64,000 nt of DNA from positions 62,001 through 126,000 of the forward strand of contig NZ_CDCG01000046.1 of the NCBI RefSeq assembly GCF_000819845.1, written 5' to 3'. This DNA comes from Aeromonas enteropelogenes. GTDB lineage: Bacteria > Pseudomonadota > Gammaproteobacteria > Enterobacterales > Aeromonadaceae. The notes under the pieces were generated by a model that did no database searches, was not told where the DNA came from, and saw only the letters and a program-made list of their open reading frames with translations. Shown here piece after piece: positions 994 to 36,755 of the stretch. Each line of letters begins with the position of its first letter. The first letter of the stretch is position 1. A program made the position numbers and the translations under genes.

Positions 994-1021
994 AAGCCGG
1001 CCCAGTGCCGGCTTTTTCTTT
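994..1021 (+). terminator. Rho-independent terminator after the symporter gene
   Basis: A perfect 8-bp stem (AAGCCGGC / GCCGGCTT) with a 5-nt loop is followed by TTTTCTTT. It ends the symporter transcript 19 nt after the stop codon. Confidence 0.85.
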
Positions 1022-1072
1022 CCCTCTTGTCATTGCCGTTCATAAACTCGTTTTCCCAACCCTCACTGACGC

Positions 1073-2281
1073 CTAGTCGGCAACCCAGGCTGGATTTTGC
1101 GTGCAAATATTATCAACCGTCATGCCGCTCATGACCTGATAGGCCGCATGGATCAGCGAATACTCAGGTTTCGCCGCATCGAGAGGCGCCTCCCAAAACA
1201 TGACACCACCCAGTTTCGTTGATAATGCAAGCTCGGTTTTCTTAATAATAAGGGGGAGTCCATTATAATAATTGGTTTTGGTTTCTGCTGGCTCGGCCAC
1301 ATCAGGTATAAATTTAAAGCTATTTCTGCACGCATTCACGACGCTGTAGCCCTGCGGAGAGACAAGCTCGCCAAATTCATTCTGGTTCCAGCTCGACGTA
1401 TCTTCATTTTCCTGGTCCGGATGTTGTAAAGTGATGTAGCTCCAATCTTGCCAGTTGTTTCGGCTATAGACGGGCAACCCCAACATCACTTTCTGCGGTG
1501 GTACTTCTCTTTTGTTCACCCAGTAATCAATACTGTCTATCGCATGTTGAAAAGTACTGTGGTTTTCAAATTCCATGTCGTATGCCATGAGATTGATACT
1601 ATCAAAATCTCTTAACGTTGAATCCAGATATGCGTCGGCATTCCCGCTATCTGTCATCTTATCTCTGGTACCAATGACTGCTGACGACAAATACTTACTC
1701 CGTCTATGTAATTCATTGGCAAGTTCTCTGACAAATAAAGCGTATTCGTCTGCAAATTGAACCCTAGGGTATTCCCAGTCAATATCAATACCATCAACAC
1801 CATACTCTTTAACCAGTGCCATTATGGCAGAGATAAATAATGTTCGTTTTTCAAAATTGCGCGCTATCTCTTCAAATACCAGATCGAAACCGTCATCATC
1901 TCCTCTCCAACCGCCTATCGCGATATATATCCTGGCATTCGGATTGGATTCCTCTCTATAGGAAACCAGCTTATCCAGATCTTGTTTCTGGGCTGGCGTC
2001 AATGACTCCAATTCACCCGTAGCGGCATCTCGTGGATTGACAAAGGCGACCACATAATCAGTTATCTCTTTTCCTCTGGCCTGTACATTCTGCATAAATG
2101 TCTTTTCATAACGACCAATTGACAGGTACACAATATTACGCGGTGTTGTTATCACATCAGGCCCGGCAACAGCCTCAGGTAATACTACCGAGCCTGGTTT
2201 CTCATCGACATATCTAGAGTCTGTCTTGCAACCAGAAAACATCGTTATAATGACCATGATAAATAGAAATATTTTTGACAT
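1073..2281 (-). CDS. GH18-family chitinase-like lipoprotein
   Basis: A glycoside hydrolase family 18 protein, predicted to cleave chitin or related beta-1,4-GlcNAc polymers, or a GH18-like binding protein. The first 17 residues form a signal peptide ending in a lipobox (FSGC, Cys18), so the mature protein should be a lipoprotein on the cell envelope. The GH18 catalytic signature DGIDIDWE sits at residues 163-170 with the proton-donor glutamate at 170, and the IAIGGW strand motif lies near 120; both are intact. Its length of 402 residues is enough for a bare TIM barrel with no carbohydrate-binding module. Base composition is clearly more AT-rich than the flanking genes, with many ATA, AAT and TTA codons, suggesting horizontal acquisition. 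The natural substrate is not knowable from sequence. Confidence 0.85.
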   Translation of the reverse strand: MSKIFLFIMVIITMFSGCKTDSRYVDEKPGSVVLPEAVAGPDVITTPRNIVYLSIGRYEKTFMQNVQARGKEITDYVVAFVNPRDAATGELESLTPAQKQDLDKLVSYREESNPNARIYIAIGGWRGDDDGFDLVFEEIARNFEKRTLFISAIMALVKEYGVDGIDIDWEYPRVQFADEYALFVRELANELHRRSKYLSSAVIGTRDKMTDSGNADAYLDSTLRDFDSINLMAYDMEFENHSTFQHAIDSIDYWVNKREVPPQKVMLGLPVYSRNNWQDWSYITLQHPDQENEDTSSWNQNEFGELVSPQGYSVVNACRNSFKFIPDVAEPAETKTNYYNGLPLIIKKTELALSTKLGGVMFWEAPLDAAKPEYSLIHAAYQVMSGMTVDNICTQNPAWVAD

Positions 2282-2885
2282 ACCACTCTTCTCTCTCTAT
2301 CGCGAGCTTTCATCATTCGTCAACATTAGCCATCGCCAGTTAAAACGCCATAATAGCAGGACGTATCACATCCGTTTCCCATGCAGAGGCAGATGAATAT
2401 ATCAACTGGCTATTAGCCGTATAGCTCATATACCCCCCAAAAAATTCACTTGACTTGATTTCGAGCAACCATATGTTCGAGATAAGAATAGTCAAAGAGA
2501 GAACGCACAATCCTGTGACTCGAATAGCATTATTTGATTTTGCAATACGCTGAAAAAAACATGATTTGAGACGCGACAACTTTTGACTATTTTCAAATGA
2601 GTATTACCCCCCCCCTGAAGCAGGATGCATTTGCTTCTCGGTAGGGTATCTGCGTTAAACATGCGTACGCGGGCGTTGTCATTAATAATCCGGCCATGAG
2701 GGGAAGTCCCTGGCGACACAATATGTGTGGCCATCTGCATCTGTCCAAGACCGACAGCGGCGTTATGCTGACATCATGTCGCCTCGCCCCTCTCCAGACC
2801 GATCAAGATCACAGTTCCTGCTAAAACTTTCGAGGGATTTGTGCCATAATGCGCGCCATTTGACAGACCAACCGGGACACCTACC
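2282..2885. other. 604-bp AT-rich intergenic region
   Basis: This region lies between the GH18 gene and ybiT. It keeps the lower GC content of the GH18 gene up to about 2640, then returns to background. The only coding candidate is a weak TTG-started small membrane ORF on the minus strand. No insertion-sequence ends or tRNA are visible. The last 120 bp must contain the ybiT promoter. Confidence 0.5.
2340..2579 (-). CDS. Possible small membrane protein (doubtful)
   Basis: A 79-residue reading frame upstream of the GH18 gene on the same strand. It has one convincing hydrophobic stretch near residues 23-40 (VTGLCVLSLTILISNIW) after a basic N-terminus. The start would be TTG and no good Shine-Dalgarno sequence precedes it. 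It lies in the same AT-rich segment as the GH18 gene, where long open frames are less expected by chance. No family is recognised. Confidence 0.25.
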   Translation of the reverse strand: MSRLKSCFFQRIAKSNNAIRVTGLCVLSLTILISNIWLLEIKSSEFFGGYMSYTANSQLIYSSASAWETDVIRPAIMAF

Positions 2886-31336: not shown

Positions 31337-32662
31337 TTAGAGCTCGACCTCATCCAGCACGGTGCAGATGTGGGCAAAATCCGGCCTGGTCTCGGGCAGC
31401 TCTGCCAAACAGGCAGCCTTGAGGCGATGCAGGGAGGCGAGCCCCGCCTCATCGGCTTCACAATGTGCGAGCAGCTCTTCAAGCAGGCAGCCAAAGGCCC
31501 GCACCTCGAGCCGCTCCAGCCCGAAGGCCCGCGTCTGATCGGCACGCTCATAAAAAGAGGCCGCGCCAAAATCGGAGAGCAACACCCGCACCTCCTCACA
31601 TGGCCCTGTGGCATAAAGCATATTGTGGCCATAGAGGTCCCCGTGCATGATGCCGGCGCCGTGCAGATGGCGCGCCACCGAAGCGATCCCCCGTGCCAGT
31701 GCCATCATCCCGGGCAAGGTAAAGCGCAAGTCGGCGGCATAGATATCGCGAGTACAGGATTCCAGGCTCGGCGGCCCCGCCAGATTGGCAAACGCGGGAT
31801 CTATCAGCCCCATTACCAGCGCCGGAATGCCGGAGGGGTGATCCGCCACCCGCCCCACCACCTCGACCAGGTTGGGATGATTGCCTGCCGCCAGGGATGC
31901 CGTCATCTCACAGCGCGGCAAACCATCGCTGGTCACGGCCCCCTTGAAGAGCTTGACCGCCACCGCCTGACGCTCGCTCCGGTTCCAGCTCGCACTATGG
32001 ATGACGCCGGAGGCGCCCTGCCCCAATGGCTCACCCAGCGCCAGCTCATGCCAGCGGATATCTGCCACCTGCGCACTCGCCGCCATGCGCGACTCCAGCG
32101 CATCGCTAAAGGGGTTGCCGGAATAGGCGAGCCAGGTGAGGCGCGGTAGCGACAGCAGCCATTCGGGAAACGCCTCTAGCCGATTGGCTGCGATACGCAG
32201 CAGCTCCAGACGGCGGCAATTGGCGAGGGTCTCGGGCAGCTCGCGCAGGCGATTGCCCGCCAGCATCAGCTTTTGCAGGCCGTCACATTGGCCCAGCTCA
32301 TCGGGCAGGCTTTCAATTGCGTTATCAGTCAGGATCAACCAGCGCAAACCCGCGGGCAGCGACTTGGCCGACACGCGTGCAATCCGGTTGGCCTTGAAGC
32401 CCACCATAGTGAGCGCCGGGCAGCGCCCAAGCACCTCGGGCAACTCGGTAAAGCGGTTCTCTGAGCAGAAAATGATGCGCAGCTTGCTGAACCCGGCCAG
32501 CTCGTTCGGAAGTGTACTTAGCTGGTTGCCGGTCAGATCCAGCACCTCCAGCGTCTCTTTGATAGCCAGGATCTCGGGCGGGAACTCCGTCAGGTTTTCG
32601 GCGAGTTTGAGGTGGCGGGCGCCGCAGAGTTCACCTGCGCGCAGCTGTTCCAGGGTATGCAT
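31337..32662 (-). CDS. Leucine-rich repeat protein with C-terminal protein kinase domain
   Basis: A 441-residue cytoplasmic protein fusing leucine-rich repeats to a Ser/Thr-kinase-like domain. Repeats of about 23 residues with the LxxLxLxxNxLxxLP pattern fill about residues 20-185 (LEVLDLTGNQLSTLP, LRWLILTDNAIESLP, LQKLMLAGNRLRELP). The kinase part (about 205-441) has the glycine loop GQGASGVIHSA, the ATP-anchoring Lys in AVKLF, the catalytic loop HGDLYGHN and the metal-binding DFGAA, so it should be active. The HGDLYGHN loop replaces the usual HRDxxxxN Arg with Gly, as in some atypical kinases. The ATG at 32662 (MHTLEQLRAG) is chosen; the frame extends 46 codons upstream. Substrate and role are unknown. 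Confidence 0.87.
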   Translation of the reverse strand: MHTLEQLRAGELCGARHLKLAENLTEFPPEILAIKETLEVLDLTGNQLSTLPNELAGFSKLRIIFCSENRFTELPEVLGRCPALTMVGFKANRIARVSAKSLPAGLRWLILTDNAIESLPDELGQCDGLQKLMLAGNRLRELPETLANCRRLELLRIAANRLEAFPEWLLSLPRLTWLAYSGNPFSDALESRMAASAQVADIRWHELALGEPLGQGASGVIHSASWNRSERQAVAVKLFKGAVTSDGLPRCEMTASLAAGNHPNLVEVVGRVADHPSGIPALVMGLIDPAFANLAGPPSLESCTRDIYAADLRFTLPGMMALARGIASVARHLHGAGIMHGDLYGHNMLYATGPCEEVRVLLSDFGAASFYERADQTRAFGLERLEVRAFGCLLEELLAHCEADEAGLASLHRLKAACLAELPETRPDFAHICTVLDEVEL

Positions 32663-32975
32663 GACATCGTCTCTATCGGGGTGGCCGACTCGCGGCCAAC
32701 GGCGCTGCCGGTGGTTGGCCCAGCAGTCAAACCGGCAGTCAAAAAAAGAGGGGGCATTATAGAGAATGACGGCCGAAGATCCCCTGTTTTGTTGCCGCAA
32801 GGGCCGCTATCTGCGCGCAGCAAAGCGGCATGGGGGCAAAGAGAGCAAGATCCGGGGCGTGTCTACGAGGGCCGGTTGCCATAGTGGGTTCAAACCCGAG
32901 TGGGTCGAGCCCGTTGAGGGCCCAACCCACTGCCAACCCTGTGCGCCTGCACAACACACCTGCGAGGGAACTGCC
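32663..32975. other. 313-bp divergent intergenic region, LRR-kinase / SDR
   Basis: It contains the promoters of both genes (not pinpointed) and a compact three-armed inverted-repeat structure near the SDR start. No tRNA was confirmed. Confidence 0.4.
32883..32931 (+). other. Predicted three-way-junction structure upstream of the SDR gene
   Basis: AGTGGGTT (32883-32890) pairs with AACCCACT (32924-32931). Inside lie two small hairpins: ACCC-GAGT-GGGT (32894-32905) and GCCC-GTTGA-GGGC (32909-32921). Together they form a compact junction ending 44 nt before the SDR start codon. It could be a structured leader RNA or a dispersed repeat; neither is shown. Confidence 0.4.
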
Positions 32976-34819: not shown

Positions 34820-34920
34820 CGTAGGGTTCAATAAGCGCAGCGCATTGCACCGTTTTCAGAGCGACTTTTTGGAAAACTAGAAGGAACAAAAGTAGAGGTG
34901 CTATTTCATTGCACCCTACG
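34820..34920. repeat. 101-bp inverted-repeat-bounded element (MITE/REP-like)
   Basis: CGTAGGGTTCAAT (34820-34832) and ATTGCACCCTACG (34908-34920) are inverted repeats matching at 12 of 13 positions. An internal AGCGCAGCGCATTGCACC resembles the ends. CGTAGGGT-ended palindromic units of this kind occur as dispersed repeats in many proteobacteria. It sits exactly at the edge of the AT-rich TIR island. No target-site duplication was seen. Confidence 0.5.
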
Positions 34921-34954
34921 ACACTCTAAATAGCAGAGGAATACCCCAGCCAGA

Positions 34955-35764
34955 TTAACATTTCTCTGGTGAAGTAAGAGTTTCAATACGATCTTGATTT
35001 GATAGACAAACGTCAACTCCGTACTCAGTTAACTTGTAGCTAAAATACTCATTACCATTGAAATCAGAGCTATTTAATTTTTCGATCATGCCTAAACGGG
35101 TGAGTTTTATTATAGCTAAGTTGATTTTAGCCGAACTTAAATCATATTTAATGAAACGGTTATACAAATCCCAACTAACGCAACCATCAACATCTGAGTT
35201 TACAGACTCAAGCAACACTGACAATGCGATCATATCTGTGTCGGTGAGTGTTGCTAATTGAGCATTTACATCAATACGTGGTTTTTCCTGAACAGAATCG
35301 AGTTCAAGCAAACCTTGTAGTTTGAAAGCTCGTTTTATTTGTGTAGCGGAGTAATTGAGAGATGACGCTAAGTCTTCATCACTTCTGTTTGCATCAAAAT
35401 CAGTTGGAGTAATACCTAGAAGATCACTTGGGAAATGCAAGTCAACGCCACGTGGCTTTACAATAAAACACCGGTTCTTTCCAATTGCACCAATAAACAA
35501 ACCAAGTTCAAAAACTACGTTATCCCTTACAACATACTTTTCTCTAGATCTAATAATTGTCAGATCATCAGGAGAGAAAATGAAAATAGAGAAATCCACA
35601 GACTTAGCTTTTGAAATCAAGTCATCAAGAGCGTTACTCGAAATATTAAATGTACCATTCCGCCATATTGTAACTTCTGCATCAAATTCTAAGTTTTCAG
35701 CAATTGCATCTGCTATAGGTAGGCTTTCAACAGATGAACCGATAAATACTCTTGGCTTTCTCAT
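34955..35764 (-). CDS. TIR-domain protein of the CAP12/Pycsar-effector type with C-terminal winged helix
   Basis: A 269-residue protein. The N-terminal half (about 3-130) matches the TIR-like nucleotide-binding domain found in CBASS CAP12 and Pycsar effectors: RVFIGSSVE start, VTIWRNGTF, VDFSIFIFSPDD and the hallmark RDNVVFELGLFIG, whose glutamate is expected to be the NAD+-cleaving residue. Such TIRs degrade NAD+ to abort phage infection. The C-terminal part (about 165-260) looks like a winged-helix domain (INLAIIKLTRLGMIEK, FSYKLTEYG). No cyclic-nucleotide sensor domain or cyclase gene is present. The gene is AT-rich against its surroundings, implying transfer. GGAGAG precedes the ATG. It lies 63 bp after the small upstream gene on the same strand, so an operon is likely. 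Confidence 0.82.
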   Translation of the reverse strand: MRKPRVFIGSSVESLPIADAIAENLEFDAEVTIWRNGTFNISSNALDDLISKAKSVDFSIFIFSPDDLTIIRSREKYVVRDNVVFELGLFIGAIGKNRCFIVKPRGVDLHFPSDLLGITPTDFDANRSDEDLASSLNYSATQIKRAFKLQGLLELDSVQEKPRIDVNAQLATLTDTDMIALSVLLESVNSDVDGCVSWDLYNRFIKYDLSSAKINLAIIKLTRLGMIEKLNSSDFNGNEYFSYKLTEYGVDVCLSNQDRIETLTSPEKC

Positions 35765-35827
35765 AGTCTCTCCAATTTTTTTTAAAAATTCGCAAAGCCG
35801 TGAACGAAGTGAATAATATATTAAGTG

Positions 35828-36160
35828 TCATTTATTGAAATATGTCTCTAATACATTACCTGATGCCTCATCAACTCTGCAGTTGAATCCAGCAAAATTC
35901 CCCACCCATAATGGAGATTCACTTGTAATGTAGGTGTAGGCATCAACCGCACCTTGACCAATATCTGATGCCCGCCAAATAAAACTCCCCGCACGAGCAT
36001 AGCAAAATAGGTTTCTAGCCGGGCTATTTCTCTCAAAGGCCATCCAGTCATATATGACCAAAACGTGTTCGTGAATCAGTGATGCGCTGAGGACTGGATA
36101 TTCGCCTTTAAAGCGAACACCATCACCTTCAATCCAGTTTTCATGCACTGTAAGCTGCAT
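35828..36160 (-). CDS. Small protein of unknown function, upstream partner of the TIR gene
   Basis: A 110-residue acidic, aromatic-rich protein with no signal peptide or membrane segment. The start is supported by GAGG 5 nt upstream. The pattern NLFCYARAGSFIWRASD followed by PLWVGNFAGFNCRVDEASGNV resembles small single-domain beta-rich proteins often found as orphan genes beside toxin or defence loci. That likeness is a weak impression, not a family assignment. It shares low GC content and orientation with the TIR gene. It could regulate, neutralise or trigger the TIR protein, or be unrelated cargo. Confidence 0.6.
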   Translation of the reverse strand: MQLTVHENWIEGDGVRFKGEYPVLSASLIHEHVLVIYDWMAFERNSPARNLFCYARAGSFIWRASDIGQGAVDAYTYITSESPLWVGNFAGFNCRVDEASGNVLETYFNK

Positions 36161-36482
36161 GTGACCTCTAATGGCGATTAGATGGGAGCGGTACAGGTCA
36201 GTTTACTGAGCTTGCCATATAACTCTGCGGCTGCTCTAGCTTGACGAAAAAAGGCTGTTACCGAGCCAGTATGCTAGCGAGCAAGGAAGATAATAAAAAG
36301 TGTGAGATGGTAGTTTCCTGAGCAAGATCAACAAATTAAATAAGAAGTACCAATGCTGGCCACATATCAACGGTGCCGGATCCTAGATAAAGAAAAGACG
36401 CCCTAAAGCGTCTTTCTTATTTTCAGGGTTTAGAGCAAACAGGTTGGAGGCCATTCCCCTCCCCGCCTTGCCCGCAACCCAA
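36161..36482. other. 322-bp AT-rich intergenic region
   Basis: It contains the unlocated promoter of the small gene/TIR pair, and a terminator of the stefin gene at its right end. No coding frame or repeat was identified. Confidence 0.4.
36386..36415 (-). terminator. Terminator of the stefin-like gene
   Basis: AAAGACGC / GCGTCTTT with a 6-nt loop is followed on the minus strand by TCTTTATC. Confidence 0.75.
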
Positions 36483-36755
36483 TCAGATCGGGGTAATGGA
36501 GGTGATATGGGCATCTCCGTCCAGTGATTTGAAAATCTGCACCACGGCTTCGCCATGGATCGGTTTGGTAAGCGGCACAGTACTCTTGCACTTGAAGCGG
36601 TAGTTGGTGCCAGCCACCACCTGGGTGGAGACTTCAAAGGGTACGTACTGCACCCCGACAAATCCTTTCAGCGCCTGGTCAAATACCACCTGATCCTCGG
36701 CGGTCAGCTTGTGATATGCGGTCCATCCACCCACCAACACTGCTTGTTCTGACAT
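36483..36755 (-). CDS. Bacterial stefin (type 1 cystatin-like) cysteine protease inhibitor
   Basis: A 90-residue protein without a signal peptide. Its centre reads STQVVAGTNYRFKC (QVVAG at residues 45-49), the diagnostic first hairpin of cystatins, identical to animal stefins over QVVAGTNY. An N-terminal VGGW supplies the conserved glycine, and QIFKSLDGDAHI near 70 matches the stefin VFKSLPG strand and second loop. All three wedge elements that plug papain-like proteases are therefore present. The ATG at 36755 has GGAGAG 8 nt upstream; a longer frame exists but is not family-like. It lies downstream of guaA with its own terminator. The target protease (host, prey or endogenous) is unknown. 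Confidence 0.85.
   Translation of the reverse strand: MSEQAVLVGGWTAYHKLTAEDQVVFDQALKGFVGVQYVPFEVSTQVVAGTNYRFKCKSTVPLTKPIHGEAVVQIFKSLDGDAHITSITPI

Follow-up and report, generated by a model that had tools for sequence, protein, structure and literature searches.

A CAP12-type TIR protein with a winged helix in Aeromonas enteropelogenes, and the SSB-like C-terminal tip of its relatives

The closest described relatives of the protein analysed here are the CBASS Cap12 TIR-STING (PDB 7un8, 9lmq) and related effectors, with which it has in common the PF10137 family, an aligned catalytic-position Glu and its best fold match, and the Pycsar effector PycTIR (PDB 8jsj), which belongs to the same TIR family. 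In Sf TIR-STING, NAD+ depletion uses a glutamate of the TIR domain (PMC13142454). In contrast to CBASS Cap12, the family described here has a winged helix (followed in relatives by an SSB tip), no nucleotide receptor and no adjoining cyclase. Compared with PycTIR, the protein under study lacks a cyclic-nucleotide-binding domain and an adjoining pyrimidine cyclase, and its domains are arranged in the opposite order.

SSB-interacting proteins dock on the C-terminus of SSB via its last Phe and its acidic residues (PMC10164576), phage RecT proteins recognise the last seven residues of host SSB (PMC10711431), and several defence systems are triggered by phage SSBs (PMC12887533, PMC12409349). Retron-Eco8, AbpAB, Hachiman, Nhi and Hna are comparable in their workings only, in that their immunity is tied to the SSB/ssDNA hub (PMC12887533, PMC12409349, PMC13381803); these systems sense phage SSB or DNA damage, whereas the TIR family itself bears an SSB tip. 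Most of the TIR relatives carry a near-identical, host-matched version of the bacterial SSB tip (DFDDDIPF) after a flexible linker, but the family has no OB fold and comprises effectors instead of ssDNA binders. In the literature that we searched, which covered few subscription papers, we found no published TIR with an SSB tip and no winged-helix TIR defence. The TIR family, the winged helix and the hotspot are ordinary parts; what is unusual is that a widespread TIR effector of solo organisation bears an SSB tip matched to its host.

Domain organization and genomic site

Both open reading frames that the preliminary description had singled out in the window (a 64,000-nucleotide stretch of A. 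enteropelogenes DNA, contig NZ_CDCG01000046.1) are present on the same strand, with a 63-bp gap between them (Table 1). The larger one encodes a 269-aa protein that is likely a phage-defence enzyme, composed of a predicted NADase TIR domain joined to a winged helix. Its TIR domain carries the hallmark VVRDNVVFELGLFIG, and its PF10137 match scores 121.8 bits, above the curated threshold of 24.7. The protein is also matched by the PADLOC models for CBASS "TIR effectors" (~3e-46) and for PycTIR (2.9e-36), and its relatives in the PDB are TIR-STING and PycTIR (8e-23 to 8e-18). E86, situated in RDNVVFELG, aligns with the catalytic-position Glu of these proteins and is invariant in 49 of 49 aligned family members. 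The CAP12-type TIR domain would act as an NADase, and the family would have an anti-phage role.

Table 1. Coordinates of the features discussed. Positions refer to the window, except in the last two rows.
Feature	Position	Strand	Basis and remarks
TIR-winged-helix gene, 269 aa	34955..35764	(-)	ORF, Pfam, AlphaFold; own Shine-Dalgarno GGAGAG
CAP12/Pycsar-type TIR domain, residues 5-124	35393..35752	(-)	Pfam PF10137, 2.1e-35
E86, aligned to the catalytic-position Glu of TIR-STING/PycTIR	35507..35509	(-)	Alignment; invariant in family
C-terminal winged helix, ~residues 173-256	34997..35248	(-)	AlphaFold, weak NCBIfam winged-helix regulator match, Foldseek
Stop codon and decayed remnant of C-terminal tail	34934..34957	(-)	SGWGIPL beyond the stop; AAWDVPQ in Enterovibrio
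110-aa gene of unknown family, carried along in the insert and not a conserved partner	35828..36160	(-)	Search results
Low-GC insert (approximate extent) in the variable ada/stefin-like gap	34924..36269		Flanks 34885-34923 and 36270-36382 common to genus genomes with other inserts
L194 protein, other TIR-like domain and winged helix, ends AFDDDIPF	1501-2286	(-)	
L202 copy, frame-broken, ends TFDDDIPF	~1017-1761	(+)	

The AlphaFold model, built from a 47-sequence alignment from which plasmid-derived rows were left out, has the order TIR, linker, winged helix, with a pTM of 0.54 that leaves the mutual placement of the domains unsure. The winged helix expected at the C-terminus is modelled (mean pLDDT 81) across residues 175-245, as three helices (175-190, 197-207 and 211-223) and a two-strand wing (227-233 and 239-245). 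In Foldseek, TIR-STING ranks top, and Orc/Cdc6 proteins and LmrR match more weakly. Pfam and NCBIfam searches of the 269-aa protein found no STING, SAVED or cyclic-nucleotide-binding domain, and no cyclase adjoins the gene, the flanks of which hold an SDR, an Ada-like protein, a small stefin-like gene and guaBA. The earlier proposal of an activation logic unlike that of CBASS and Pycsar is upheld.

The gene lies in an AT-rich insert (GC content of 37 per cent in 35001-36000, against ~60 per cent around it) and is the only copy in the host genome. Of the 36 other genus genomes, a single one (G014) has the full-length TIR gene together with the small gene, and it has them at the same site; between the two genomes, identity is 97-99 per cent in the insert and 63 to 98 per cent in the flanking bins. 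In other genus genomes the same ada/stefin-like gap, beside guaA, holds different low-GC cargo, including PD-Lambda-4_A, a SIR2-like N-terminus, a deaminase-like protein, DUF6119 and a KAP P-loop protein related to PifA. The gap is a small chromosomal defence/cargo hotspot. In a promoter and terminator scan of the insert, promoter matches were at the level of shuffled sequence, and searches of phage and E. coli collections gave no match.

Three other genes of the window deserve mention. The stefin-like small protein (36483-36752, minus strand) has a QVVAG motif as in animal stefins and cystatins, with a Pfam Cystatin match of only 0.12, and its gene is kept at the DNA level in 27 of 37 genus genomes. 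Leucine-rich repeats are fused to a protein-kinase-like domain in the product of 31337-32800 (minus strand), here on a bacterial chromosome. A low-GC (~45 per cent) gene at 1073-2281 (minus strand), with the DGIDIDWEYP motif typical of family-18 chitinases, was probably acquired horizontally.

The SSB-like tip of the family

A genome scan yielded ~46 full-length TIR-winged-helix relatives, plus three on plasmids, and the family ranges over Pseudomonadota, Bacteroidota, Campylobacterota, Thermodesulfobacteriota, plasmids and P2-like prophages. Thirty-nine of 51 family members end in [ILVM]xF, many of them with DFDDDIPF after a P/Q-rich linker. A strict SSB-tip motif is present in 34 of 46 family members, compared to 0 of 30 PF10137 TIRs that are without this winged helix and 0 of 596 neighbouring ORFs (Fisher P-values of 9e-12 and 1e-46, respectively, uncorrected for kinship). 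The tail was spotted post hoc and was therefore retested on viral-contig sequences that were fetched later: the strict motif occurs in six of nine full-length relatives, some of which are close copies, with tips such as DSFDDDIPF, DFDNDIPF and LDFSDDIPF, and two further relatives end in DLSDKPPF. A chance origin of the DDDIPF termini is rejected by the comparisons with other TIRs, with neighbouring proteins and with this independent viral set, and inheritance of the tip with PF10137 in general is rejected by its absence from the 30 TIRs that are without this winged helix. The SSB-type acidic tip is the ancestral ending of the family.

The tips also resemble those of the SSBs of their own hosts. 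In 27 host genomes, we compared the last 12 residues of the chromosomal SSB with the end of the TIR protein from the same genome. The observed 154 identities exceed the permuted expectation of 118.3 ± 5.0 (0 of 10,000 permutations as high, with no correction for kinship), and 138 identities against 109.1 ± 4.5 are obtained when Bacteroidota are left out. Specifically, PEPVDDFDDDIPF is common to TIR and SSB in Marinobacter, where the underlying DNA differs at synonymous sites; the two Massilia tips compare as PAPNFADMDDDVPF against PAPNFSDMDDDIPF; and in Bacteroidota DDLPF occurs in both proteins, with one NDLPF. The evidence that the tip has adapted to the host SSB tip is strong but, because relatedness is uncorrected, not conclusive.

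The copy in the window ends in TSPEKC and has no SSB-like tip, its reading frame stopping short of the tail seen in its nearest relatives. Because the SSB of its host ends in MDFDDDIPF and the tip has been lost, this copy no longer mimics the host SSB. On the phylogenetic tree, it groups with the proteins of Enterovibrio, Photobacterium and Halodesulfovibrio in a clade devoid of tips, nested in a tree that is mostly tipped, that needs about six tip changes and in which long branches leave the deep joins unsure. The tip is not indispensable, being absent from the window copy, from the two relatives nearest to it and from some other members. The body of the window copy is under purifying selection: dN/dS against Enterovibrio is 0.02 for the TIR domain and 0.12 for the winged helix (with saturated synonymous sites), and 0.12 overall against G014. 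In a Pseudomonas fragi plasmid copy (L018, 6001-6903, plus strand), an IS30 transposase gene overlaps the C-terminus, and the tail is thereby lost.

A search with a winged-helix profile identified two other genomes in which a winged helix of this kind and a tip come after a different TIR/deoxyribosyltransferase-like N-terminus (L194 and L202 in Table 1). The new N-terminus, tested in L194 only, matches PF05014 (0.001) and PF13676 (0.03), both below cut-off, and the L194 protein has no match in the viral contigs. Based on these two examples, the winged helix and tip behave as a portable regulatory module.

Possible modes of action

The preliminary description had tentatively placed the sensor either in the winged helix or in the small partner. 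The winged helix is present, and the partner is not supported; the likely clue to the sensor is the SSB-like tip next to the winged helix of the relatives, which is invisible from the window because the window copy has lost it. In our assessment, there is an even chance that the gene is a solo mobile CAP12-TIR anti-phage effector controlled by its winged helix and by docking of the SSB tip. The TIR domain would be a dormant NADase that is fired by oligomerisation and empties the cell of NAD+. The control module would be C-terminal, consisting of the winged helix and, in most relatives, a flexible linker with a copy of the host SSB tip. Through this tip, the enzyme would most likely attach to readers of SSB tips, either SSB-interacting proteins of the host or phage annealing and recombination proteins that bind the tip of host SSB. 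Infection would then alter the docking site and bring TIR domains together. In the tipless window copy, which would retain just the winged-helix share of this control, the trigger would have to come via the winged helix or the TIR domain alone, because the tip was lost by decay and a stop codon.

The tip mimicry of the family suggests cell-death switches that are tied into the DNA-replication hub for phage sensing. For bacterial TIRs that have neither a cyclase nor a nucleotide receptor, the SSB-tip family offers a concrete, cheaply testable answer to the question of how phages are sensed, in which immunity would be coupled to the network of SSB interactions. Tip changes with known effects in SSB (loss of the last Phe, or a Pro change of the ssb-113 type) make this sensing dissectable. 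Plant integrated-decoy receptors are immune proteins that display a copy of a pathogen's target. The likeness of the present family to them is an analogy of workings, with homology limited to TIR and a hypothetical decoy role. We tentatively entertain the possibility that the winged helix and SSB tip form such an integrated-decoy sensor, to which phage Red-beta/RecT/Orf-type proteins would bind, clustering the protein and firing the TIR NADase; at least two effectors of the TIR superfamily carry the module, and its tip appears to be kept host-matched.

The tip might instead act as a lock in cis, held in a basic pocket of the winged helix or TIR domain of its own or a neighbouring subunit and freed by ssDNA, phage SSB or a phage DNA mimic. 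We judge such a lock to be rather unlikely. It would suit the constant association of the tip with the winged helix, the known contact of the SSB tip with its own OB fold (PMC10164576) and the triggering of other systems by phage SSBs (PMC12887533, PMC12409349), but the tips match the host SSB, which would not be required of a ligand acting in cis, and, as a weaker point, the tail is of low confidence and undocked in the AlphaFold monomer of a tipped relative. It is also unlikely that the tip only localises the protein to DNA coated with SSB, with the winged helix then sensing DNA damage or foreign replication; the possible outcome would be programmed death on damage or competition between mobile elements, instead of the sensing of a phage protein. 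Proteins are recruited to ssDNA by SSB tips, DNA binding is usual among winged helices, and the genes sit on plasmids and prophages; the tip, however, is the ligand that SSB itself displays and would compete for its readers rather than bind SSB. Plain membership in CBASS or Pycsar is rejected, as the winged helix replaces the receptor, a cyclase is not among the flanking genes and the NCBIfam Cap12 cut-off is missed (123 of 450 bits). For the same reasons, and because the relatives are single genes on mobile elements, we consider it very unlikely that the protein is an orphan effector of this kind, with a nucleotide made in trans and the winged helix as its receptor, even though its TIR domain belongs to the CBASS/Pycsar TIR family.

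The most improbable of the readings is the pair of the preliminary description, with the 110-aa protein as trigger sensor or as a restraint on the TIR domain. The two genes are on the same strand, 63 bp apart, and both are kept in two sister genomes (the window's and G014, among 37 of the genus) with no amino-acid change in the small protein. Co-conservation of the pair fails beyond these two genomes and their one site. The 110-aa gene does not occur in the flanks, mostly of 8 kb, that were fetched for ~48 other full-length TIR relatives, including those of Enterovibrio (88 per cent identical) and Photobacterium (79 per cent), and most of these relatives stand alone, with ~100 bp between them and the gene on either side; the TIR gene of the window also has its own Shine-Dalgarno sequence. 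The refuting condition named in the preliminary description, that homologues never occur together, thus applies to the partner. On the absence of the partner near other full-length relatives and on their solo organisation, a conserved two-gene defence pair is rejected, and because of this absence we regard the TIR-winged-helix gene as a single-gene system. The 110-aa protein matched no family in PADLOC, NCBIfam or Pfam and nothing in the viral contigs, and its one weak match in the class sample is unlinked. Its only clear distant relative (32 per cent over 78 aa) is encoded on a Sulfurovum plasmid (L031, 3665-4243, plus strand) and adjoins an Imm27 immunity gene, a neighbour that hints at a protein perhaps of immunity type.

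Genomic surroundings of the relatives

The TIR-winged-helix gene is a solo, horizontally moving element. Its surroundings are of the defence type that had been anticipated, namely the variable chromosomal hotspot with defence genes, P2-like prophage spots and plasmids, as occurrences with no quantitative background. Specifically, Drt4 and an RT-nitrilase DRT lie near relatives, as do a Lamassu-like ATPase and restriction enzymes of types I and IV (occurrences without a background comparison). Several viral-contig relatives adjoin P2-like tail genes, and one adjoins portal and terminase genes; P2-like phages carry defence hotspots (PMC9122126, PMC9519451). DRT-type reverse transcriptases precede the TIR-winged-helix gene at two loci (L068, the locus of a tipped Alloalcanivorax relative, and L094). 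In Halodesulfovibrio, 27 bp separate the TIR-winged-helix gene from the end of an upstream retron-type reverse transcriptase (L106, 6234-7973, plus strand) that matches the PADLOC RT-TIR_XII and RT-Toprim models.
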